DNA of 64,000 nt, taken from assembly GCA_022829145.1 (NCBI GenBank), contig CM040753.1, forward strand, positions 3,521,149 to 3,585,148, written 5' to 3'. Positions 1,131-57,095 of this stretch are shown in pieces. Position numbers and translations under genes: made by a program. The DNA comes from Albula goreensis. Lineage: Eukaryota; Chordata; Actinopteri; Albuliformes; Albulidae. The first letter of the stretch is position 1; every line of letters starts with the position of its first letter. The notes below the pieces were generated by a model that was not told the DNA's origin, ran no database searches, and was given only the letters and a program-made list of their open reading frames with translations.

Positions 1131-1325
1131 GTCCTCATCTTCGCATTCACTCCTGCTCTGCTGATAATGGAAACGGGGACGGATTTCTTGCAAGGGGCGT
1201 GGGGTCTTTCCTGCATTGTCCTCCTCCGCGCCCTGTCCCCCGAGCAGATGACTGGCCTCCGGAAGAACGGGGAAAGACCTGTTCGTATTAATCTTTCCCG
1301 TAAATCTCTGATACAGTGAAGCCAT
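1131..1325 (-). CDS. dpp6: dpp6 first coding exon, long (DPPX-L type) isoform; cytoplasmic N-terminus
   Basis: Minus-strand exon of 65 codons, starting MASLYQRFTGKINTNRSF and ending ...SRSECEDED. It matches, from memory, the N-terminus of vertebrate DPP6-L: the MASLYQRFTGKIN start, PEASHLLGGQG, RPRF-YQ and an acidic end before the junction. DPP6 is a catalytically inactive S9B prolyl-oligopeptidase-family type II membrane protein that binds Kv4 channels, increases their surface expression and speeds gating. This exon supplies only the cytosolic tail; the transmembrane helix and ectodomain are encoded further along the minus strand, outside the window. The exon is followed immediately by GTAAGA, a good donor, and ends in phase 0. 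The ATG at 1325 is chosen because the family starts there. Codons upstream are open for ten residues but have no ATG, and the base at -3 is C, a weak initiation context. The segment between GGQG and RPRF looks shorter than the Gly/Ala-rich mammalian one. Whether this is dpp6a or dpp6b cannot be told. Confidence 0.9.
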
Positions 1326-3260: not shown

Positions 3261-4105
3261 CTCCACGCTTTAACCGCTCTGAATTGCAGTCACGGATCTG
3301 GCGAGACACTCAAAAGTTCAGCGATGGATCTTTAGTGGAATGTCTGTATATACAGAATGTGCTCGTTCACTTTGATGCCAGGGAGTGCAAACACCGTTTC
3401 ATGGTCATTATGTTAATCCCTAAGACTTTGCATAGTACGCTTTTCGTATACACTACAGTTGTGTTTTTCACCCCTGGGTCACAGAACCCTCTCAGTCTCT
3501 GACTCAGACCCCCTCGCTTGTGAGAATGAGCTCTCATTTAGGGCCTGGAAATGTGAAAGCATGTGACACAGATCGCCACTTCCACCATTCGCCACACTAA
3601 ACAAATCACTTCTTTCCTCTGCCATGATCAATGGTTCAGCTTTCACAGTCCATGTGAACAACGTGCCAGTCCACAACAAACTGACAAACAGGCGAATAAT
3701 TCTCAGGCCATGGAAAGAACACTCCACTCTCTCTTACGGATGCTTCTCCATAAACTCATCAAATACGCCCAGTTATGCATCCTTACAAAGCTCACAGTCT
3801 TCCTTCAGTGTGCAGTACAGCGCCGGTATCATGGCTGGAAAGGGAAAATCATAAAAGCCAAATTAAAACATCGTTACAAAATGTGTTGAATACAATCCAT
3901 GTCTTAATTGAGCTACACGCTCTACCAATGTTACATCGTATTTGTACCTTTCGATAATGACTTACATAAATGAAATACTTTCGCTTAAATTGTTGATCGC
4001 AGAAAAGCAATTCTTCTTGCTTGCTCATTACAGATATTCCTAATTTGTGTAACCCCCACAAGCAAATTATGTACACTATTTCTGCATGTCTACGTTAAAC
4101 TTTTA

Positions 4106-16993: not shown

Positions 16994-17747
16994 AATATTC
17001 CGCTGGTCTCAGATCAGGGGGTAGCGTGGTTTTATGTATACAATACAGGACAGAAAGCGCTGACAAGGCTGCTCTGAGGCGCTTTAATAGAGTGTCAAAG
17101 ACAAGGCAAAAATAAGGTTCTCTGAGGATGATTTAGAAGAGCCGACGGAAGCAGCGCCCCAAGCCCGAGTCTCAATAAGGGATATATCACCCAGAGCCAG
17201 GAGACAACTGTAAACATGAAGGAGAGTTATCCTGCACCCTCCTCTGTAAATTCAGCTCTCTACCCTCCACAACCCATCACCTCCCACCCATATACTCTCC
17301 ACCCCGCCTCACCTCCCGTTAGCAGAGACACTCGTTAACAACTTTCCATTCAGACTTTGTGTTAGCGCTCCACATGCAAAGATAAAACACCAGCACACAT
17401 CCCCCCCACCCCCACACACCATCACCATTTTCTGGTATTCATTGTCATTTTTTTTTTGGTCAGAGAACAATAAACTGTGTACATAGCTGCACCAAAACAC
17501 CTGTTTGTCCAAACGCTGTCTTCAGCACCTCATCACCCTGTACAGAAATGAAAGGCGCACTCAAATCTATGCAAGTCAAGGACAGCCATAGATCTATGTT
17601 GAAATGAAACATTAGGAGTGGGCTCAAGGCAAGTGGAAAATGAAACATCTTCAGCCAGTTTTTTTTTCTTCTCGTTTCCCACGAGGGCTGCAGTGAAGGA
17701 GAGCGATCAGAGAGTGACACTAACGCCGTGCGAAATTAAGCCCTTAC
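16994..17747 (-). other. dpp6: dpp6 intron downstream of the alternative first exon
   Basis: Intronic, following the donor at 17746-17747 on the minus strand. It contains a C run (17401-17415, G-rich on the minus strand) and a TTCAGCACC word at 17522-17530 that equals the left half of an RE1/REST site, without a proper right half. No exon was recognised. Confidence 0.55.
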
Positions 17748-17804
17748 CGTTTTGGAGGATGTGGTGGTGTCGATCTTCTGCTGGGTGACGATCAGAACGG
17801 ACAT
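17748..17804 (-). CDS. dpp6: Candidate alternative first coding exon of dpp6 (short N-terminus)
   Basis: On the minus strand an ATG at 17804, in the context GAACCATGT, opens 19 codons (MSVLIVTQQK...TTTSSKT). These run straight into GTAAGG, a good splice donor, leaving phase 0. The long-isoform exon at 1131-1325 on the same strand also ends in phase 0, so both could join the same next exon. Multiple short alternative first exons encoding different cytosolic tails are a known feature of DPP6 and DPP10. Those tails tune Kv4 inactivation and trafficking. I do not recall this exact tail from a named isoform; its ...SSKT end loosely resembles a DPP10 variant ending PSKTIK. The exon is short and hydrophilic with no signal peptide, as expected for a type II protein tail. 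The structure is seen; assignment to dpp6 is inference from strand, phase and position. Confidence 0.6.
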
Positions 17805-18070
17805 GGTTCACTCGCACGCTCGCGCCCTCGTTCCTCAACTTCGGCTCCAAAAAGTGTTGGCGCTGCGGCGGTCCGGTGAGGTGTGCGTGCGGTGTGTGGG
17901 TTTTTTTTTTTTTTTCGGCTTCTGAGCCGACCCCCTCCTGGAATCTCCACACGAGAGCGAAGCCGCTGAGAGAATCAGTCAGGGAGCCACAAGCGTCCTG
18001 TCTCCGGGATATCGTAATCCATCTGAAGAAGGGTGGCTCTCAAACTGTGCCTACCTCTCCCTTCTCTTCC
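17805..18070 (-). promoter_or_regulatory. dpp6: Presumed 5' UTR/promoter of the alternative dpp6 first exon
   Basis: The sequence upstream (minus sense) of the ATG at 17804 is GC- and CpG-richer than its surroundings: CGCACGCTCGCGCC, GCGCTGCGGCGGTCCGG, CTCCGGGATATCG. It lacks a TATA box, consistent with a small CpG-type promoter. The transcription start is unknown. Confidence 0.4.
17975..18022 (-). other. Possible upstream ORF in the 5' leader of the alternative exon
   Basis: A minus-strand ATG at 18022 opens 15 codons (MDYDIPETGRLWLPD) and stops at 17975, about 170 nt upstream of the presumed main ATG. It matters only if the transcript starts above 18022, which is not known. Its initiation context is moderate (G at +4, C at -3). 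Confidence 0.2.
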
Positions 18071-18300
18071 CCTCTCTAAGCCCTCTCTCCCACAGGCTAT
18101 TACAGGTTCCACTCCTCCAGGAAACTGGAGCTCCAAAACCCCCTCCCCCTTCCCCCGCACACCACACACTCACACACTCACACACCACACACAAGCAAGG
18201 TACGCAACAGTATCTGTCAGAACGCAAAGATCACTGAGAGTCTTCTGCTTCTCCAGTCCCAACTTCAGAGCAGCAGCGGAAGGGAGTGATTTTGGAGCCC

Positions 18301-18402
18301 TTTTTTTTTTTTTTTTTTTTTGGGTTCACCCACGTGTGATCGCGCATGCTTGTGTAAGTGCGTGCATGTGTGCGTGTGTGTGTGTGTGTTTGTTTGTGTG
18401 TG
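18301..18402. repeat. Poly-T run followed by (GT)n
   Basis: A 21-base T run at 18301-18321, then, after about 40 bp, an interrupted GT repeat to 18402. Confidence 0.9.
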
Positions 18403-20053
18403 AGCGAGACAGACAGAGAGTGTATGCCCATGTGTGTTCTGCCCGACTGACAATGGATCAATTCAATCAGTTTTACTGTTAGGGTTTGTGATAAAGCCTG
18501 TGCGATATTTATTCTGTATGTCTAGCACATCGTAAATTATATCTGCTCCTAAGAGGACAGGTCCCTGGCGCAATATGAGATGCTGTTTTATTTATGCCGC
18601 GTTTGTGCCCACGTATCGAATGGAGTACCCAAACTGAATAACCAATTTACGCTCCAAACCTGCACCCCCTGTCCATGTGCTAAACAGCAGAGAGAGGCTC
18701 GGGCGCAGGGGAGCCCAGAGCACACTGAGTAATTGCTTTGGGAAAGATTGTGGCTTTCTCTGCGACACATATTATCAGTTTCCTATTACCACTATTTTGA
18801 GTGACTCCGAAAAAAAATTGGACAAAGTTGAACGGAGCAATGTGAAACAAGACTATTAGACTTTACCTCACAGCATGGTGAAATGTAAATCGCATTCTGT
18901 GCTTCGTAAAGATCCAGCGGATTTACAGTATATGTTTGCTTACAGATTGATATGCAGTACTTACAAGACACACACAATGCTGAATGGTGAGATGGACAGC
19001 TAGCCTCATTAGCGAGCTAATAGAATAACCACTCCCTCAAAGGCCAGTGATATTGTCTAATGACAGATCTGCCACCTGGCCAGCCCAAATATTAATTTGT
19101 TTTATGATGAATTCTTCACATCCTTCAGTGTTACCGGTCATTAGACTGTGCCTTAACTGACTGTCAGATCACACATCCCCCTTTTCTTTGCAGTAGAGAT
19201 CTTTCCTTGCTCAATTCTGAATGCCTTTATTAATTTTTCAGAGCTTGAACATTACAAAATTGGTCTCACCTCAGCTCACACCGGTGAGGAGGAGAGTGAC
19301 GGTGGGAGTAAGGATTGTACCGCCACGCACGCCTGTGCCACCCTCCCATCCTGAATTCTGTCATAAACAAAAGCGCTTCCATAAAACTCCAATACCACCT
19401 CCACATGCTTGAGTGACCTGCAGTGCCACAACTAGTTTCAGTACCAAATTACAGTAACATACCTAATTCCTAAAATGTGGAGGTACCAAATTCCTGTACC
19501 ATCAGAGTTACAGTACCATCATGTACCATCCAGTACCATGAAGTTCCTTCATCAAGTAAAAGTCGTACACCATCCCAGCTTACTATACTGCCCCCAAAAA
19601 TTCATACCACTCACATCTTTGGTTCATGGCATTTTATATTACCTACAGTTCCCACAGCATTTGTCTATAAAGGTGGGTATGTACTGTAAAGACGTTCATG
19701 TTTAGTACCTCACTTTAGAGCATACCACATCTTCTACACTCACTCTATCACTCAAACCTTTGATTCCAAATCGATTCCTGCTTGCCCTTGGTATCTGCCC
19801 AGACAAATACATCACTGGCCTGTAACGGCCTGCAGCCAATCACACAGACTTAGTCTCTTTAATGGTGGATGCATTTCAATCTTAAATGGACTTCAGTCTT
19901 TTTAGAGGCCTGTGCTTTTCTATTTTACAATTAAACGGGTGCTTTTCAAAGGACACCATTGCCTGCCTCCAGTAAAGCAGAAAATACTCAAAGAAACTTG
20001 TGCTATAATGTAATACTGTTTTGATGGAATTTCGTGTGAGTTTCAGGAGACTA
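18403..20053. other. Non-coding sequence
   Basis: No supported gene. A stretch at about 19430-19700 is enriched in AGTACC/GTACCAT words, possibly a very decayed tandem repeat, but no period could be fixed. Confidence 0.5.
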
Positions 20054-37300: not shown

Positions 37301-37412
37301 CTGCAAGGTTTCTGGTGAGTGCCTGCAGGGGTCTGAGCCAGGTCTGTTGTCTCTATGCACAAAGCAATGCAGACTAAAAGGCCACTACCTGTACTACCGT
37401 AGGAAGGATGAA

Positions 37413-37557
37413 ACGCACACACACGTGCACACGCACACACGCACACACACGCGCACGCGCACACGCACACGCACGCACACACACGCACGCGCACACACGC
37501 ACACGCGCACACACACGCACGCACGCACACACACACACACGCGCACACGCACACACT
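37413..37557. repeat. (CA)n/(CG)n alternating purine-pyrimidine tract
   Basis: About 145 bp of nearly unbroken alternation, with many CG steps among the CA steps (ACGCGCACGCGCACACGCAC). The CG density makes it a stronger Z-DNA candidate than the plain CA repeats in the window. Confidence 0.95.
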
Positions 37558-42760: not shown

Positions 42761-44197
42761 TATTGCAAATACACTGCTAAAATATTCAGGCATTAAAATA
42801 ACATTTCAATGATGTTAACCATTTTTACGTTTACCTCATTTTAGTATGAAAACAAAGCGTTTGGAATAATGACAGCATCAACAGTATTATTTGTACTATT
42901 GTGTAATAATAGTTTATTATAAAATTGTTGTATCGCTCTGTCTCTCCCTTTTTCTCCATCCCCAAGTCTTTCCATCGCTTCCACCTCCTCCCCCCCGCTT
43001 CCTTCCCCTCTTCCTCCCTCGTTAGCATCCCTAAAACAGACTGCCAAATTAGCCTCTAATTGCATTGGGTGCCATTTGTAATGTGAACTCTGGTCTATCA
43101 GAGACTGCCAGTGACTGCTTCAAAAGACTTCCCTGAACCCTGTGTGGGCCAGTGAAATAAATTATTGGTTCCCAAAATGAAAACAGACAACAGGCTGCTC
43201 CAGGATTTGCAGTCCAAATTTGTTTTGTTCTATTCCAAAAAAAACAACAAAAAAAAAAAACTCCACTGACTTGTGTCAAGGACAAGTCGATATGGTTCTG
43301 GAGACAGTCGCCTGTGTGCCAAAAGCACATTAACTAATTAACTCCCATGATTTCAGCGTGCAGAATTTAAGAATGGTGGTATTGATTAGAAATGACTTTC
43401 TGTAGAAAGGAGTGGCAGGCAATGAGCTTTAAGCAAAAAAATCAGTGAAAATACAGCTGCTCAGCTGCTCCGGGGAATTGCAGCTGACAAACACAGAGGC
43501 CAGGTTAAGACAGGGGAAAAGCACAACTCATCATGAAATATTCATCTATTGTAAACTCATTATTTTGCGGGGAGACCAGCCCAGTCCTGGCTGGCTAAGT
43601 TATGATTGATTGCACCGGACCGGGAGGAGCGAGCAACAGACAGGGGTGGATGTGAGGCAGGAAGAAAATGTCTTTACGTGTGCAGGGTTTTATGTGGAAG
43701 CCAATGTCTGTTTACCGTCATGGCAGTACGAAGTAACAAAGCAAAGTCATTTTCATCACAGAGACATGCGGGCTGTTTTGCAATCAGCCCCATACACGAG
43801 CCTGCCAGTCAAAAAACCCCACCGTGTGCTGGACATGCAGGCAAATGGCATTGGCTGCTGTTATTGCTCTTTTTGACAATACAGGGTTAGTCATTTTATA
43901 AACTGGTCATGCAAGCATCTGGGATTTGGGGCAATAAAATAGTAGAAAAAAAAAAACTGTGAGGAAAAAAAAAGTTTCTGAATTCATTCTTGATGCAGAG
44001 TATTTGTAGAAACCCCACTGAAGCTATGCATCGACTGAAGTGACAACATCAAAGGTTTGACTTTAATTATGCAAATGGAGAAGGATTAGATTTAATTACT
44101 CTTGTGCCGTTAGACCGTCCCTGGCTCCCGTGTGCTGGTGTCGTACTCCACTTCCTCTCAGCGGTGTCAAACACACACGGCAGTCTGATAATCAAGG
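42761..44197. other. Non-coding sequence
   Basis: No supported gene. Two overlapping open frames at 43606-43890 have no family resemblance. Short A runs lie near 43245 and 43950. Confidence 0.5.
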
Positions 44198-47100
44198 TGC
44201 TAACGCTGTATCTCTGTACCTGAGACCTGTCCACAGTGCTAACGCTGTATCTCTGTCTCTGTACCTGAGACCTGTCCACAGTGCTAACGCTGTATCTCTG
44301 TACCTGAGACCTGTCCACAGTGCTAACGCTGTATCTCTGTACCTGAGACCTGTCCACAGTGCTAACGCTGTATCTCTGTACCTGAGACCTGTCCACAGTG
44401 CTAACGCTGTATCTCTGTCTCTGTACCTGAGACCTGTCCACAGTACTAACGCTGTATCTCTGTACCTGAGACCTGTCCACAGTGCTAACGCTGTATCTCT
44501 GTCTCTGTACCTGAGACCTGTCCACAGTGCTAACGCTGTATCTCTGTACCTGAGACCTGTCCACAGTGCTAACGCTGTATCTCTGTCTCTGTACCTGAGA
44601 CCTGTCCACAGTGCTAACGCTGTATCTCTGTACCTGAGACCTGTCCACAGTGCTAACGCTGTATCTCTGTACCTGAGACCTGTCCACAGTGCTAACGCTG
44701 TATCTCTGTCTCTGTACCTGAGACCTGTCCACAGTGCTAACGCTGTATCTCTGTACCTGAGACCTGTCCACAGTGCTAACGCTGTATCTCTGTACCTGAG
44801 ACCTGTCCACAGTGCTAACGCTGTATCTCTGTCTCTGTACCTGAGACCTGTCCACAGTGCTAACGCTGTATCTCTGTACCTGAGACCTGTCCACAGTGCT
44901 AACGCTGTATCTCTGTACCTGAGACCTGTCCACAGTGCTAACGCTGTATCTCTGTCTCTGTACCTGAGACCTGTCCACAGTGCTAACGCTGTATCTCTGT
45001 ACCTGAGACCTGTCCACAGTGCTAACGCTGTATCTCTGTACCTGAGACCTGTCCACAGTGCTAACGCTGTATCTCTGTACCTGAGACCTGTCCACAGTGC
45101 TAACGCTGTATCTCTGTCTCTGTACCTGAGACCTGTCCACAGTGCTAACGCTGTATCTCTGTACCTGAGACCTGTCCACAGTGCTAACGCTGTATCTCTG
45201 TACCTGAGACCTGTCCACAGTGCTAACGCTGTATCTCTGTCTCTGTACCTGAGACCTGTCCACAGTGCTAACGCTGTATCTCTGTACCTGAGACCTGTCC
45301 ACAGTGCTAACGCTGTATCTCTGTCTCCGTACCTGAGACCTGTCCACAGTGCTAACGCTGTATCTCTCTACCTGAGACCTGTCCACAGTGCTAACGCTGT
45401 ATCTCTGTCTCTGTACCTGAGACCTGTCCACAGTGCTAACGCTGTATCTCTGTACCTGAGACCTGTCCACAGTGCTAACGCTGTATCTCTGTACCTGAGA
45501 CCTGTCCACAGTGCTAACGCTGTATCTCTGTACCTGAGACCTGTCCACAGTGCTAATGCTGTATCTCTGTACCTGAGACCTGTCCACAGTGCTAACGCTG
45601 TATCTCTGTACCTGAGACCTGTCCACAGTGCTAACGCTGTATCTCTGTACCTGAGACCTGTCCACAGTGCTAACGCTGTATCTCTGTCTCTGTACCTGAG
45701 ACCTGTCCACAGTGCTAATGCTGTATCTCTGTACCTGAGACCTGTCCACAGTGCTAACGCTGTATCTCTGTCTCTGTACCTGAGACCTGTCCACAGTGCT
45801 AACGCTGTATCTCTGTACCTGAGACCTGTCCACAGTGCTAACGCTGTATCTCTGTCTCCGTACCTGAGACCTGTCCACAGTGCTAACGCTGTATCTCTGT
45901 CTCTGTACCTGAGACCTGTCCACAGTACTAACGCTGTATCTCTGTCTCTGTACCTGAGACCTGTCCACAGTGCTAACGCTGTATCTCTGTCTCTGTACCT
46001 GAGACCTGTCCACAGTGCTAACGCTGTATCTCTGTACCTGTACCTGAGACCTGTCCACAGTGCTAACGCTGTATCTCTGGACCTGAGACCTGTCCACAGT
46101 GCTAACGCTGTATCTCTGTACCTGAGACCTGTCCACAGTGCTAACGCTGTATCTCTGTACCTGAGACCTGTCCACAGTGCTAACGCTGTATCTCTGTACC
46201 TGAGACCTGTCCACAGTGCTAATGCTGTATCTCTGTACCTGAGACCTGTCCACAGTACTAACGCTGTATCTCTGTCTCTGTACCTGAGACCTGTCCACAG
46301 TGCTAACGCTGTATCTCTGTCTCCGTACCTGAGACCTGTCCACAGTGCTAACGCTGTATCTCTGTACCTGAGACCTGTCCACAGTGCTAACGCTGTATCT
46401 CTGTCTCTGTACCTGAGACCTGTCCACAGTGCTAACGCTGTATCTCTGTACCTGAGACCTGTCCACAGTGCTAATGCTGTATCTCTGTCTCTGTACCTGA
46501 GACCTGTCCACAGTGCTAACGCTGTATCTCTGTACCTGAGACCTGTCCACAGTGCTAACGCTGTATCTCTGTACCTGAGACCTGTCCACAGTGCTAACGC
46601 TGTATCTCTGTACCTGAGACCTGTCCACAGTGCTAACGCTGTATCTCTGTACCTGAGACCTGTCCACAGTGCTAATGCTGTATCTCTGTACCTGAGACCT
46701 GTCCACAGTGCTAACGCTGTATCTCTGTACCTGAGACCTGTCCACAGTGCTAACGCTGTATCTCTGTCTCTGTACCTGAGACCTGTCCACAGTGCTAACG
46801 CTGTATCTCTGTACCTGAGACCTGTCCACAGTGCTAACGCTGTATCTCTGTCTCTGTACCTGAGACCTGTCCACAGTGCTGTAACCTGAGACCTGTCCAC
46901 AGTGCTCTGTATCTCTGTCTCTGTACCTGAGACCTGTCCACCACAGTGAGACCTGTCCACAGTGCTAACGCTGTATCTCTGTCTCTAACGCTGTATCTCT
47001 GCCTGAGACCTGTCCACAGTGCTAACGCTGTATCTCTGTCTCTGTACCTGAGACCTGTCCACAGTGCTAACGCTGTATCTCTGTCTCTGTACCTGAGACC

Positions 47101-47305
47101 TGTCCACAGTGCTAACGCTGTATCTCTGTACCTGAGACCTGTCCAAAGTGCTAACGCTGTATCTGTCTCTACCTGAGACCTGTCCACAGTGCTAACGCTG
47201 TATCTCTGTACCTGAGACCTGTCCAAAGTGCTAACGCTGTATCTCTGTACCTGAGACCTGTCCACAGTGCTAACGCTGTATCTCTGTACCTGAGACCTGT
47301 CCATA
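44198..47305. repeat. Large minisatellite of 39- and 45-bp units, roughly 75 copies
   Basis: The unit is TGCTAACGCTGTATCTCTG + TACCTGAGACCTGTCCACAG (39 bp). A second form has an extra TCTCTG (45 bp). Copies are almost identical; common variants are GTACTAACG, GCTAATGCT and TCTCCGTACC. Long copies recur as long-short-short, a 123-bp higher-order unit (long copies at 44581, 44704, 44827 and 44950). The right end, from about 46860, is rearranged with truncated units. Both unit lengths are multiples of three and stop-free in several frames, so open frames of over 900 codons appear on both strands. They have no other coding signs and are not called as genes. Near-identity indicates recent expansion. 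Confidence 0.98.
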
Positions 47306-49007
47306 GTCCTGGCAAGCATTTGCCATTTAGCTAAATAGAACGGGACCAACTGAACATTCAACTACATCATAACTACATCATAGCCAGGGGATTCACAGAA
47401 GCTACGGCTGTCCATTGACATTTAGCCTTTACGATTTACATTTCATCACATGTGTGCACAAAGCACTAACAGGAAATACAGATCCCTAGTCATGCTCTCA
47501 TCACTCTCTGCTAAAAAAAACATAAACACTCATTTTTGGATATTAAGGCTGCAGTTACATGGGCAGCAGCCCAAAAACAGGGGGACTGACAGCAGATGGC
47601 AAAATCAGAAGGCTGAAGGCAAAGCACCACAGCATGATGGTGTTACGTGTTAGTAGTGGATGTTTCTGATGTATTCCAAGTCATGTCTCCAGTCATTTAC
47701 TTATTTAAAATCACTTGTGTTCATTGATTTTGATAAACAAAAAAGATGCATGGATGGCTACATTCTTACAAAATTGTTTAATCAAGTCATGTACGGCTTT
47801 TCATTATTCACCATGTTTTTCTCAGAAAGTCGATATCCAGTTTACACAGCGACACCATGACAGTAGATGGAGAAATTTTAAACAAAAGAGCTCTCGGTGG
47901 CAAGGAATGTCGTCATACTCTCATTTTAAAAAATAGTGTCTGGTTTGCGTTACGTGCAAATGTTAGCTCCTTTTCCTCACAAACGGTTTTCTAGTTCAAT
48001 TCACACATCTGTTTGAGAAGAGCATGCTGATACTTTAACTCCAGCAAGTCTGAGTTTTTATTTTTAATTAAAATAACTGAATCCTAATAAATGATCAGTG
48101 ATTCCGGAACACATATTTATGAGGAACAAAAACAAAGAACAAGTTCCCTGACAAAAACCTAATCACAGAACTCCAAAGATTCAGACCGAATATATAACAG
48201 CCGCCCACCCCCACCCCACCCCACCCCACCCCCACCCCCAGTCACCCATAACCATTTAGAGAGGTACTGAGTTTGATGGTTTCTGAGATGCATAATAAAA
48301 CCCACGATGTACAGGCTTAACTTTGAGAAATGGCATCTCATATAAAGGCCACTATAAATCAGAATCCCTTTTTTTTCTGAGGCGGCTTGATTGTCCCACG
48401 GGCTAAAAATGCAACCCAATAAATAAGCACAGAAAGTAATTGTGAATACAAGCTGACGCTTGACAAGACGTGATCCTCCATCAGCGCTAAACTGATAGCC
48501 CCAGGGACAGGGTGGAATGAAAATCACAGCTCTGTAACACTGACCCCAGCCTTATCCTCTAATGAGTCATTGTGCTCCTGCCGTTAAAAGCCAAAGTGCC
48601 AGATCGTGAGCGAAATCCACCTTAAGCCCTGTCACTAGGAACTGAACGGATATGAAAGCGCTCTTATGGATGGCATCAACCACATCTGCAGAGATTTCAC
48701 TTCGCTGAACACCCCCCCCTCCCCATCCCCCTAAAAAAAAAAAAAAGATCACCTTGATTTTTACCTAATCGCATATGAAATTTTAATTAAAACTTCCCCT
48801 AAGGTGGTTATCCTTGACATTAACATCAATGACCTTCTTTACCGTTTGACAAAGAAAGATGGAGGGTTAACAAAGACATTATGGCTTTACACTCATACAG
48901 GTGTACATTGCCGCTACACCGACTCCTTATTATTTCAGCATGCCACACGTCAAAACATAACAGCAAATATGCAGTATTCACGTCACAATACAATGGACAT
49001 CCTGGCC
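47306..49007. other. Non-coding sequence with a C-rich tract
   Basis: No supported gene. CCACCCC repeats at 48204-48239 give a strong G-quadruplex motif on the minus strand, which is the dpp6 sense strand. A C run plus poly-A lies at about 48711-48747. Confidence 0.5.
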
Positions 49008-49870
49008 CGTAGTCTACGGGCTAAGGCACATGACCTGGACCCCTGAGGTTCTAGCTACAGCAACAGCAGTCTACAGGCTAAGGTACATGACCTGGACCCC
49101 TGAGGTTCTAGCTACAGCAACAGCAGTCTACGGGCTAAGGTACATGACTGGGACCCCTGAGGTTCTAGCTACAGCAACAGCAGTCTATGGGCTAAGGTAC
49201 ATGACTGGGACCCCTGAGTTTCTAGCCACAGCAACAGCAGTCTACAGGCTAAGGTACATGACTGGGACCCCTAAGTTTCTAGCTACAGCAACAGCAGTCT
49301 ACGGGCTAAGGCACATGACTGGGACCCCTGAGTTTCTAGCTACAGCAACAGCAGTCTACGGGCTAAGGCACATGACTGGGACCCCTGAGTTTGTAGCTAC
49401 AGCAACAGCAGTCTACGGGCTAAGGCACATGACTGGGACCCCTGAGTTTCTAGCCACAGCAACAGCAGTCTACAGGCTAAGGCACATGACTGGGACCCCT
49501 GAGTTTCTAGCCACAGCAACAGCAGTCTACAGGCTAAGGCACATGACTGGGACCCCTGAGGTTCTAGCCACAGCAACAGCAGTCTACAGGCTAAGGTACA
49601 TGACTGGGACCCCTGAGGTTCTAGCCACAGCAACAGCAGTCTACAGGCTAAGGCACATGACTGGGACCCCTGAGTTTCTAGCTACAGCAACAGCAGTCTA
49701 CAGGCTAAGGCACATGACTGGGACCCCTGAGGTTCTAGCCACAGCAACAGCAGTCTACAGGCTAAGGCACATGACTGGGACTCCTGAGGTTCTAGCCACA
49801 GCAAGAACACCATTGCTGTTGGGTAAGTCACTTTGGATAAAAGTGTCAGCTAAATAATTAGGATGTCAGC
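49008..49870 (+). mobile_element. tRNA-derived SINE whose interior has expanded into a 14-copy, 57-bp VNTR
   Basis: Positions 49008-49806 hold 14 copies of a 57-bp unit (GGGCTAAGGCACATGACTGG, then GACCCCTGAGGTTCTAGC and ACAGCAACAGCAGTCTAC). The last copy runs into AAGAACACCATTGCTGTTGG and then GTAAGTCACTTTGGATAAAA-GTGTCAGCTAAATAA. That is the characteristic 3' tail of a dispersed teleost tRNA-derived SINE. The repeated unit itself resembles the anticodon-to-B-box part of the tRNA head (GGCTAAGG...GACTGGGACCC...GGTTCTAG). So the array appears to be an internal SINE segment amplified in place. The unit is 19 codons long and stop-free, giving a spurious 275-codon frame. The tail is itself partly duplicated (GTCAGCTAAATAA twice). 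Confidence 0.75.
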
Positions 49871-52156: not shown

Positions 52157-55100
52157 ATGGCAAGTGATCTGTGCTGTGACCACTTCCCTAAATTGTTGAG
52201 TGCAATGAGGTAGGGATGGGGAGATAAAATGGATAAGAAGGTGCTTATGTGAAAGAAAAACTTTATCAGCGTTTCTGATTCTATTGTCTTTGAAATGAAT
52301 TTAAACTGCTGCCTTTCTCTGGCACACCTGTCAACTGCAGAATGCATTTTGCATTCAAGGTGGCACTTCACAGCATTCATTTCCCTACATTTTAAAACGA
52401 GACGCCAACAACAACACAGTCTCGATATTACAGTCACTTGTGGATTTTGGTTGCATGATCCACTTCTTAAACGCATTTTATATTCTTAAAAGTTTTAGCA
52501 CGGGGTAGTGGTGCGGAGCGTAAACGTATACTCCGAGGGCCTTGTACGCATCCGCATATTGCACTGACGTGCAATTCTGCATCTGTTAGCACTTCCCCAA
52601 AGTCCAAATGCCACATTATTCTCCATTCATCCCAAGCTCCAACAGCAAAGCCGTGATCTAAAACCAATATCTATGGTAACTGTAGTATACTAAGATTAGC
52701 ATTCGCGGCTCTAGGCGTGGTAAAATTTTAATGACTTCTCTCCCAGCACAAGGGGAGAGGCTGCTTAAAAGGTCACTTTTGCCCGCCAAGCATAATAAGG
52801 AAACATGAAAGAAGTAAAAGGTCAAACAATTTAACCCAGTATTTAAATGAATCACTTTTTTTTTCGCACAAAGGAACATAAATATAACAACTTGTAGAAG
52901 TTGAATTCGTAAAAGATGACCGGGCTTTTTAAAACCACGGGGCAACGCAATTCCCATTGCATTTATTGTGTATTTGAGAGGAAATAACTTTCGCTTTTAT
53001 GAACAGAAATGTGGCTTGTTTTACGTTTAAATTATAGCATCACGTCTCTGCATATTTGCCGAAGGTGGCTTGTCCTTACAAACAACTACCCAGCTGAAAT
53101 AAATGAAAAGATTGGTTGACCGTTCCTGCAGGGAGATGAAAAACGTGCAGAATAAAGCGCTCCTTTGATCACTAACTATACCATTTTCTTCTTTCACCAC
53201 AGTTGCAGTGGGATCCGAATGTGTAAATACAAAACATAGTAAAACCTTTACTTCGCAGGGGAGGATAATATTTCTAGCAATTCATCGCGCAAATAAAATC
53301 GTTAAGATGAAAATCACAACAAAGACCAGCATTTCCACACTTACCATCATATTCCCCTGCATTTTTGCCGTTTCAATTAAATCCTTTTCCCTCATTTTCA
53401 CAGAATTTGTACAATCTTTTCCCAACAAATCATTCGCTCTTTCTGTCCGTGTAAGAGCTCCCTTCCTCTTGTCACCGTCTCCTCTCAGTTTTCCGCCTGT
53501 TCCTAAATCTGTCTAGATAGTTTAGCGAACAGGTTTGCCTGCACCGACATATGATTTCGCCTGCGCTTTGTATGGTCACTATATCCTTCTCATAGATGAC
53601 AGCACACGCTGGACATCTCTTGTCCTCCTGCGCGGCTCGAAAAGGCATCAAACATGGAGGAAACTTGGTTTTTAAATGAAAATATTGACATTTCTAGGTG
53701 CAAAATGTGACAGACTTTACATGTTTATATATCCCACCCAATGTTCCGGTATATTGTTTTAACCGGATTGGGTTGAACTGTTATTAAACTGGGATAGTGA
53801 GGGATTCCAGGACCAAATGGTTTATTATTCTACATGATTAGACAGTCGCAACCAGAACACGTTTCTGAATTTATAATGCGCTTATTTTGTTACGGAACAT
53901 ACGTGTGTGAATTCTGAAGCAACAGCCAGCAGACCAACAAGACGTACAAGAGATGCGGTTTCAGGTAGAAGGAACATGTATGCTTTTGTGTAGCTTACGT
54001 ATTTAATTGATTGTGAATAAATTGTATCTTTTTATTTGTTATAGTAAGGTACATTGATTGCGTTAAACTACCAATCAGATTCACCAAAATTATTAACCGC
54101 AGAAATGTTCCAGCATGATTTACGCACGTCGTGTCCCTATTTTTGCAGACATAACTGATTATATGACAGCGGTGAATCCAACTATACACAATTTGCATTT
54201 TCAGAGTACTTTCAGTGCTAGCCACGCGTGCCTCGCGTAAATAAGCGGCCGGGACACCAGCAGAAAGAAGTATCATACTTTCATGGAATAACACAATTTG
54301 TCTCGCCAAATGAGGCGCTACATGATGTCCTTATCCACAAATTTCTTTGCCCCGCGATTTAAATGAGACGACCGGGTCCGTTTAACTAGCATCGCGAGGG
54401 GCTCAGCAGGAAGCTGATGGTCCATTGACTTTGGATTATGGTTTTTTAGTTGTATTTTGGTGTCGTCTGAGCAATAAGAGATGTCTCAACGTCCGTGTCC
54501 GGACGTTGCAAAAACGTGATTAATATAAATGGTTAAAATACGACTTCAATTAATTTGATAAATTTCAAGACCCTTGCAAGTGACTTTCAAACCAAACCAA
54601 GCGTTGTTTGATGACTTCCTTCTAATCAGGTCTCAGTATACCCTTGGGGAGATGTTTAGACAAAATTTTAATCTTCAGTCTACTGGGACATAAAACTGTT
54701 TCAAGACCTGATATTAAAGTTATTACCAGATGACGTCATTCACGATACGCCAATAAAAATGCAAATTGAACACTGGTTTATTTTTGGTTACGTGGCCATT
54801 ATTTCAACAGACTGCTGTTTCGATAGGCATGTTGGACAATCTGTTCACCAAAGATGTCAGTATACGGTTATACGGTAACGTAGAAATTACTCACATGATC
54901 ACTGGCCAGTGGGAAATATTGCAAAAGACTACATTGTTCTGTTTTTCCACAATATCCTCCAAGTGACTCTCTTAATTTTTATAATTTGGAAGGTGAGTTA
55001 TTTTGTTCTCCCTGAGTAACACCTTTGTGATATGTAAACCTTGTCATATCAGCATACGTCAGTGTTTTTATTCATATCAAGGGAATTCATAGATATATGT

Positions 55101-56210
55101 AGCTCCACGTCTTTCTTCACATTACGAACTGTTGGTCCTTCGTTAACTCTGTCTCAACAATGTCCTCCTCATTCCCTTAACATTACCCTTTCCGTCAATA
55201 AAAGGTTCATTCTCAGCGTTAAAATCCACAAAACATAGTGGACACAAGTTGAAGAATCATCACGTGATTCCATACCAACGTATATAAATGATGACGACCA
55301 CGGTCATCATGACGCCAATCCGTTTCTTACCCAATCACAGAACTGTCATTAGAATGTGCAAGAAAACATCAACTTTCAACCCTCACATTGAGGACAAGTT
55401 AGTGAAACTAACCATGATACATGATTTCGTCCACACTAAGAAAACTATGAATCCACCGGTACAGTTTCACAGTTACACAAAATGTACAGCTGGCCTCCTG
55501 TTGCAATAAAGGAGGTGGTGATATATAATCTTTTTAGGATATTTCTATCTAGACATTGGAGAGACAGAAACACAATGGGACAGATGGACACACAGAACTT
55601 GGGCACATTTCGGTCGTTAAGCAGAGAGCTTAACCACTGTCAGAGGTTTCTATAAATACATTATGAGTCCATTAATGCAGACGATGGAGCAAAATGTTTG
55701 ACTAAATACAATAAAGAACATTTTTATGACAGAAATTGTACTACACATATTTCAACATAAAAACAAATAATGACAATTTATGGCATCTATACAACTGCTT
55801 GCAATGGCAAGTAATGCTGTATGAACAGATGAAAAACATATGGGTCATTTGATGCTTTCCTTGGACATGATGATTCACACATCATACTGTACACACATCT
55901 ATTTCTCAGAGATTGGTTATTATCACTGAAGAAAAGGCACTCTCTCCAATCCCTTCAGCTAATATCCAATCACATTCAAGTCAATGAAAGTGAACTTCTA
56001 CCGCCCTAATGTTCCCTTCATTAATGGAGGGAAGGGAGCTTCCACTTTCAAGTTCAAGGGGTTACATTGAATCAAATGCACTTGGTCTCTTCAAAGGCAT
56101 GTGCAATTCCATCAAAATTCATTTAGTGTCATTCAGGGGAATATACTGCTCTAATTTAAAATAAAAAAAACCCCCATTCCAAGGGGCGTGTGTACTTGTC
56201 TCCTATTACA
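52157..56210. other. Non-coding sequence with small palindromes
   Basis: No supported gene. A CpG-containing patch at about 52495-52570 has a TGCACTGACGTGCA palindrome. A hairpin CAACGTCCG-tgtc-CGGACGTTG lies at 54487-54508. A modestly CpG-rich patch lies at about 54220-54420. ATCACGTGAT (E-box palindrome) is near 55258, and an ATGATGAC/GTCATCAT pair near 55290. None ties to an exon. Confidence 0.5.
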
Positions 56211-56487
56211 AGTGTATACTCAGAGGTAAAGTATGTCATAATGGAATGTCCATTATGACATACTTTACAAGTGTATACTCAAAGGTAAACTATGTCATAA
56301 TGGAATGTCCATTATGACATACTTTACAAGTGTATACTCAAAGGTAAACTATGTCATAATGGAATGTCCATTATGACATACTTTACAAGTGTATACTCAA
56401 AGGTAAACTATGTCATAATGGAATGTCCATTATGACATACTTTACAAGTGTATACTCAAAGGTAAACTATGTCATAATGGAATGTCC
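56211..56487. repeat. 59-bp tandem array, each unit containing a long palindrome
   Basis: AGTGTATACTC recurs at 56211, 56270, 56329, 56388 and 56447, an exact 59-bp period; the fifth copy is cut short at 56487. Inside each unit are inverted arms TAAAGTATGTCATAATGGA and TCCATTATGACATACTTTA, 19 bp each with a 3-base loop. They are perfect in copy 1 and have one mismatch (TAAAC) in later copies. Copies 2-4 are essentially identical, so the expansion is recent. Confidence 0.95.
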
Positions 56488-57095
56488 TTTCTGATTACAT
56501 TGCACATGCCCTGAACTAAGTGCACTCAATTTAAACTGGCCCTCCAATTCCATGCCATGATCTTAAAACAGTACATAAATACTCAGTATGAGATGGTGTG
56601 CAATCAGCCTGATTCGAACCCTGATTCAAACTATCCCACCCAAAATAAAAGACTGTCTACCTGATATGAAAACAAACAAGCACCTCTCCTTGAAACCTGG
56701 AGGGAGATCTCGGGTGAATGTAGTTAGCCCAGCAGTGATGAAAGATCTTTGCTCACGCCCCAATCTGTGATAAATTGTGCTTTGTTCATTCCAGCAAATG
56801 GTCCATGATGCATTTGGTACAGTATGCTTACTGACATCCATAACTTAACACCACAAAGGAGTGACAGGAGCTTTTTGATTAGGTCCACTCTCACCAGCTC
56901 CATGTTTGGATATTTATCAGCAGGAATCACTGTTATCACACAGCTCCGTATCCGAATACCTGACATTGGCCACAGCAATGGCTTTATATTGGCTCTTGCT
57001 AACTAGCATGCTATGTAAATGCATAGCTGTACATCTTAAAAGCTTTAAAAGTTAAAAGCTTTACAAGCGTACATAAATCTTTAAACTGGTAGATT
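56488..57095. other. Non-coding sequence, nothing recognised
   Basis: Overlapping short open frames on both strands at 56588-57006 have no family resemblance. No repeats were seen. Confidence 0.5.

Follow-up and report, generated by a model that had tools for sequence, protein, structure and literature searches.

The speed of inactivation and recovery of A-type K+ channels is set by the cytosolic tails of DPP6, which neurons combine to tune their firing, according to PMC3366920 and PMC3973911. The first of these papers describes a conserved set of four DPP6 first exons, a, K, L and S, and the second names, as functionally uncharacterised, a fifth mammalian variant, DPP6D. A first-pass annotation of 64,000 nucleotides of Albula goreensis DNA (the whole stretch analysed here, hereafter the window) had proposed an alternative dpp6 first exon encoding a 19-residue tail, which raises the question of whether this gene holds a start beyond the described set. 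One more conserved start would extend by another the four variants (five with DPP6D) counted in PMC3366920 and PMC3973911 and, if real, would say which DPP6 tails a fish neuron can mix. Our analysis supports the proposal, as an exon with ATG, 19 codons and GTAAGG donor recurs, in the same order and orientation, in a dpp6 gene on a second contig. We put the probability that the candidate is an alternative first exon of dpp6 at roughly 0.88, a figure that covers the exon and not the gating mechanism discussed further below. Judged from sequence, dpp6 appears to have one more alternative first exon than the four usually described, from which a further version of DPP6 with a different cytosolic tail is probably made.

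The candidate exon and the first-exon array on C13

Direct inspection of the sequence returned the coordinates, strand, 19 codons and donor as originally annotated (Table 1). The frame opens with an ATG carrying A at -3 (GAACCATGT), in agreement with the context claimed for it, and runs on the minus strand from 17804 to 17748 directly into GTAAGG in phase 0, with the GT at 17747-17746. The recognised long exon whose phase it had been said to share is E1L, 16.5 kb downstream and also in phase 0. The peptide matched no solved-structure sequence up to E 10, Rfam gave nothing above its gathering scores in the window, and ARAGORN, run with the bacterial code, found no tRNA there.

A scan of 264 kb spanning the window and its surroundings, of which 7,500 bases are N, with mammalian DPP6 peptides placed all four known first exons and the shared transmembrane exon 2 on contig C13. 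Exon 2, which includes GAGCTGGTGGGC, was identified as DPP6 by its match to PDB entries 7ukg and 7w6t. Phase-0 GTAAG donors follow E1a, E1K, E1L and the candidate alike, and the acceptor of exon 2 is in phase 0 as well. The candidate thus lies upstream of exon 2 on the same strand, with an ATG start and a donor that fits exon 2 in phase, and its position between E1K and E1L, which holds on both contigs, places it inside the dpp6 first-exon array. E1K had gone unmentioned in the first-pass annotation, though it lies within the window. The cysteine of the C13 E1a stands at position 14, the same as reported for Fugu DPP6a in PMC3968176. The dpp6 intron sequence in the window also holds a tandem array in which a 39-base unit recurs about 76 times (44197-47307) and which stays open in frame on both strands (935 and 919 codons), and further arrays of 57-base and 59-base units at 49011-49804 and 56206-56494.

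Table 1. Positions of the candidate exon, its flank and the dpp6 first exons on the two contigs
Feature	Position	Strand	Basis
Putative alternative dpp6 first exon, coding part, MSVLIVTQQKIDTTTSSKT	window 17748..17804	-	frame, context, C3 counterpart, genome-wide pattern
Candidate exon on the genome contig	C13:3538896-3538952	-	window = C13:3521149-3585148
Splice donor GTAAGG, phase 0, same in C3 copy	window 17742..17747	-	sequence; blastn match 17807 to 17742
CpG-rich 5' flank, putative core promoter with 5' UTR	window 17805..18100	-	CpG o/e; little aligns to C3
Conserved non-coding stretch upstream of the candidate, both copies	window 18345..18604	.	C3:41899553-41899785
E1a, MNQTAGVTNNYRRCSKGGK, then GTAAGG	C13:3601012-3601068	-	peptide scan; outside window
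E1K (known), MREKDLIETAKMQGNMM, donor GTAAGT, phase 0	window 53345..53395 = C13:3574493-3574543	-	peptide scan; C3 counterpart
E1L (known), MASLYQRFTGKINT...ECEDED, donor GTAAGA, phase 0	window 1131..1325 = C13:3522279-3522473	-	peptide scan; C3 counterpart
E1S, MTTAKEQNAPAKPAQQQDQ, then GTAGTG	C13:3468259-3468315	-	peptide scan; weaker donor, our assignment
Exon 2 (shared, transmembrane), TTGCAG then ELVGSNPPQRNWKG...	C13:3423479-3423592	-	peptide scan; acceptor TTGCAG/GAG
C3 counterpart of the candidate, MSVLIATQLKIDTTSSSRT, then GTAAGG	C3:41901204-41901260	+	translated search, frame
C3 E1K, MKEKKLIETAKMQGNVM, then GTAAGT	C3:41880657	+	82% match
C3 E1L	C3:41915255	+	73% match
C3 E1S	C3:41966994	+	89% match
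C3 exon 2	C3:42001330	+	97% match

To ask how much the anatomy of the candidate says by itself, we counted every ATG followed by 10-100 open codons and a phase-0 GTRAG on both strands of the window. There were 62 such structures, 45 on the strand of the candidate and 17 on the other, with A or G at -3 in 21 and 8 of them, respectively. ATG-to-donor anatomy was therefore rejected as proof of an exon, and since it does no better than chance, it is conservation in the other dpp6 copy that carries the case for the candidate. In a 40 kb slice of C3, only 2 of the 62 structures had a tblastn partner at E <= 0.001, namely the candidate (4.5e-6) and E1L (2.1e-27); E1K belongs to the 62 but could not score, its C3 partner being situated beyond the slice. 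A comparison of the window with the slice gave 44 blastn and 1,587 translated matches, of which the best 40 each were considered, and these translated matches mostly reflect CA repeats or E1L read in other frames. Ten of the 62 structures had a blastn match of some kind at E <= 0.01, and among the other eight of these, four overlap two-base-repeat tandem arrays (starts 37757, 37793, 37820 and 42518), one (start 50113) matches at three places in C3 and looks like a dispersed repeat, and three are weak short matches (56757, 41320 and 53307).

A counterpart in a second dpp6 gene

The contig C3 carries K, the candidate, L, S and exon 2 in the same order and on the strand of the gene, as on C13. 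Between the two copies the candidate is identical at 15 of 19 residues, with no indel and with both ATG and GTAAGG donor present, and the distances from its ATG are similar, at 115 kb (C13) and 100 kb (C3) to exon 2 and 16.5 and 14.1 kb to the ATG of E1L. Conservation of the codons and of the donor, on which the original proposal had been made to depend, is thus found within the Albula goreensis genome. We regard the C13 and C3 genes as the two dpp6 copies of a teleost, because they lie on separate contigs and have introns that are mostly unalignable in the compared slice, with dS of about 0.5-1.5.

A search of the whole genome (932 Mb, 208 contigs) with the 19 residues gave one other match, on C3 (79%), with an E value of 0.26 that is weak by itself. 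Searched with a degenerate pattern of 23 bases for MSVLI[AV]TQ, the 932 Mb gave two matches, at the C13 and C3 exons, and the reversed control gave one. Together with the tblastn value in the C3 slice, a blastn E of 2.5e-12 for the exon with its edges and a local alignment score of 82 versus 53 for a reversed-query control, the two pattern matches in dpp6 genes already contradict the reading that the candidate is a chance open frame beside a chance donor. The 62 structures of the same anatomy speak for such an accident, to which we nevertheless assign next to no probability.

Neither the 19-residue search nor the pattern revealed a counterpart in dpp10, their two matches being the two dpp6 genes in each case; the pattern requires a TCN codon for serine, and a diverged dpp10 counterpart could escape both searches. 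Exon 2 had two matches in dpp6 genes and two dpp10-like ones in the genome. Outside dpp6, the transmembrane exon has a third match at C5:16690481-16690573 on the minus strand (61% over 31 residues); a dpp10-like exon 2 match lies 116 kb away on the other strand. Searching the genome with the C13 E1a peptide returned a single match, on C13 itself, although a diverged copy may escape such a search. With E1a seen on C13 only, and K, the candidate, L and S in both copies, the C3 copy may have lost the N-type inactivating tail.

The exon could also be the first exon of another transcript, such as a nested gene, a long non-coding RNA or a short peptide. The C3 gene was compared as far as 41923000, and the roughly 78 kb from there to exon 2 might still harbour a nested gene. 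However, the candidate shares strand and phase with dpp6 and sits inside the first-exon array in both copies, and the frames obtained by reading through the donor without splicing differ, with VRA followed by a stop on C13 and at least 21 further open codons on C3. We consider this origin very improbable, and a dpp6 first exon remains our preferred reading.

Pattern of conservation and the 5' flank

The blastn match between the window and the C3 slice covers 17742-17807 at 83%, so that its edges are the third base before the ATG and the sixth base of the donor. A separate local alignment (72 of 84 bases) is gapped and extends roughly 20 bases beyond the donor, to 17722, and there is accordingly no sharp stop of conservation at the donor. 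Within the exon, 10 of 57 bases have changed, with 0, 4 and 6 changes at the first, second and third codon positions. The Nei-Gojobori (NG86) estimates are a dN of 0.11 and a dS of 0.52, compared with 0.10 and 1.53 for K, 0.19 and 1.10 for L (one codon omitted) and 0.012 and 0.66 for exon 2. The residue identity is similar to that of E1K (14 of 17). By this measure (15 of 19 residues, no indel, changes 0/4/6) the exon is conserved as coding sequence between the dpp6 copies, but residue constraint by itself is borderline, with 4 residue changes versus 6.4 expected (P 0.05), and our claim consequently draws on the combination of position, edges and matching frame.

Conservation alone does not prove that a stretch is coding, because a 260-base non-coding stretch just upstream, at 18345-18604, is conserved as well (187 of 232 aligned bases, score 160 versus 53 for the reversed-query control, blastn E 2.5e-31). 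The end at 18345-18420 includes a CA repeat common to both copies, and the stretch is possibly a promoter or enhancer element. This neighbour, along with the borderline constraint, is what would favour viewing the candidate as a conserved non-coding or regulatory element with a fortuitous open frame. Against that view, the match runs from three bases before the ATG to the donor or shortly after it, the changes avoid first codon positions and introduce no indel, ATG and GTAAGG are both kept, and the exon stands in the first-exon array of both genes; a purely regulatory element is in our judgement very unlikely, and we continue to regard the candidate as coding. Another non-coding stretch conserved in C3 dpp6, at 427-568 in the intron after E1L, is likewise a candidate promoter or enhancer element.

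The CpG-richer 5' flank noted originally was borne out, with a CpG o/e of 1.09 and a GC content of 0.57 at 17701-18000 and an o/e of 0.84 at 17801-18100, versus a window mean of 0.42 (95th percentile 0.94, 99th 1.15). It is not among the 15 highest CpG windows, which include three upstream of E1L (starts 1550, 1800 and 2050) and seven upstream of E1K (starts between 53850 and 54350), as well as others at 3900, 27900 and 37350-37450 that we link to no exon. Between the 18345-18604 stretch and the ATG, no local alignment to C3 exceeded the control. The CpG-rich flank is at most suggestive of a promoter belonging to the candidate.

The predicted isoform and its relation to known DPP6 tails

Should the exon be used as we propose, transcription would begin in the CpG-rich sequence 5' of 17804, from a promoter of its own between those of E1K and E1L, and the transcript would be spliced from GTAAGG onto exon 2, 115 kb downstream, in phase 0. 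The predicted junction would read ...TCCTCCAAAACG followed by GAGCTGGTGGGCAGC of exon 2, and the product would be a DPP6 isoform whose tail starts MSVLIVTQQKIDTTTSSKT instead of an a, K, L or S tail. DPP6a and DPP6K have distinct effects on Kv4 inactivation and recovery (PMC3366920), and on this precedent the new tail may tune both processes. The likeliest site of action of its hydrophobic head (MSVLI[V/A]) would be the cytoplasmic mouth of the pore or the KChIP-Kv4 interface, the polar TQxKIDTTxSSxT segment serving as a linker. True pore-blocking N-type inactivation by this tail is rather doubtful in our view; tests of pore block with internal TEA and high external K+ have been reported for DPP10a (PMC9409431). 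In the cryo-EM structures, most of the DPP6S tail is not visible, and one DPP6S is present per Kv4.2 subunit (PMC8566240). It is tempting to speculate that K and L flank an ancient further first-exon class, dating back at least to the split between the two dpp6 genes, and that the hydrophobic-headed, cysteine-free tail of this class would confer fast, redox-insensitive pore-blocking inactivation on Kv4 and stand in where the C3 copy appears to be without exon 1a, but we hold this full scenario to be a long shot.

A separate question, which touches novelty only, is whether the exon is real but already catalogued, either in an automatic RefSeq or Ensembl dpp6 transcript of fish or as the fish counterpart of DPP6D; to this we give somewhat less than an even chance. 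Automatic annotation often carries such exons. The six peptide fragments searched were absent from the open-access full-text papers covered, and no such first exon was found in the same papers, including passages of PMC7269670, PMC9409431, PMC6531610 and PMC3621905. The naming of a fifth variant in PMC3973911 favours prior cataloguing; its sequence was not found in the open-access texts available. In contrast, PMC3366920 counts a conserved set of four, and the sequence of variants in PMC3973911 is a, K, L, D and S. If this list follows gene order, as a, K, L and S do here, D lies between L and S, unlike the candidate.

Compared with the known tails, the candidate resembles DPP6D, named as a fifth N-terminal variant of DPP6 (PMC3973911), in being additional to the four. 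To DPP6a and DPP10a, the exon 1a type with MNQTA, it is similar in length, in its phase-0 GTAAGG donor (on C13) and in encoding a cytosolic tail, but it contains neither the MNQTA motif nor any cysteine, and thus not the one near position 13 that makes exon 1a redox-sensitive (PMC3968176). C13 has a separate E1a, and exon 1a was found on C13 only whereas the candidate is in both copies. Membership of the K, L or S class is likewise not indicated, as these classes are present elsewhere in the array as different sequences. Like DPP6L and DPP6S, the candidate is an alternative first exon in both gene copies, but E1L encodes 65 residues, E1S has the weaker GTAGTG donor, and their sequences are unlike that of the candidate. 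The likeness to DPP6K, whose exon is conserved from teleosts to humans (PMC3366920), is that both are short phase-0 exons upstream of E1L with comparable identity between the copies. The peptide, however, is unrelated to K and lacks its lysine-rich sequence, as well as the Met-12 and Val-16 that are important in DPP6K (PMC3973911). The candidate tail further differs from those of a, K and S by its hydrophobic head, the mean hydropathy of the first six residues being 2.97 and 2.57 in its two copies, compared with -0.73 for a, -1.62 for K and -0.85 for S. This head may resemble the Kv-beta1 inactivation peptide, a likeness that we did not use as evidence.
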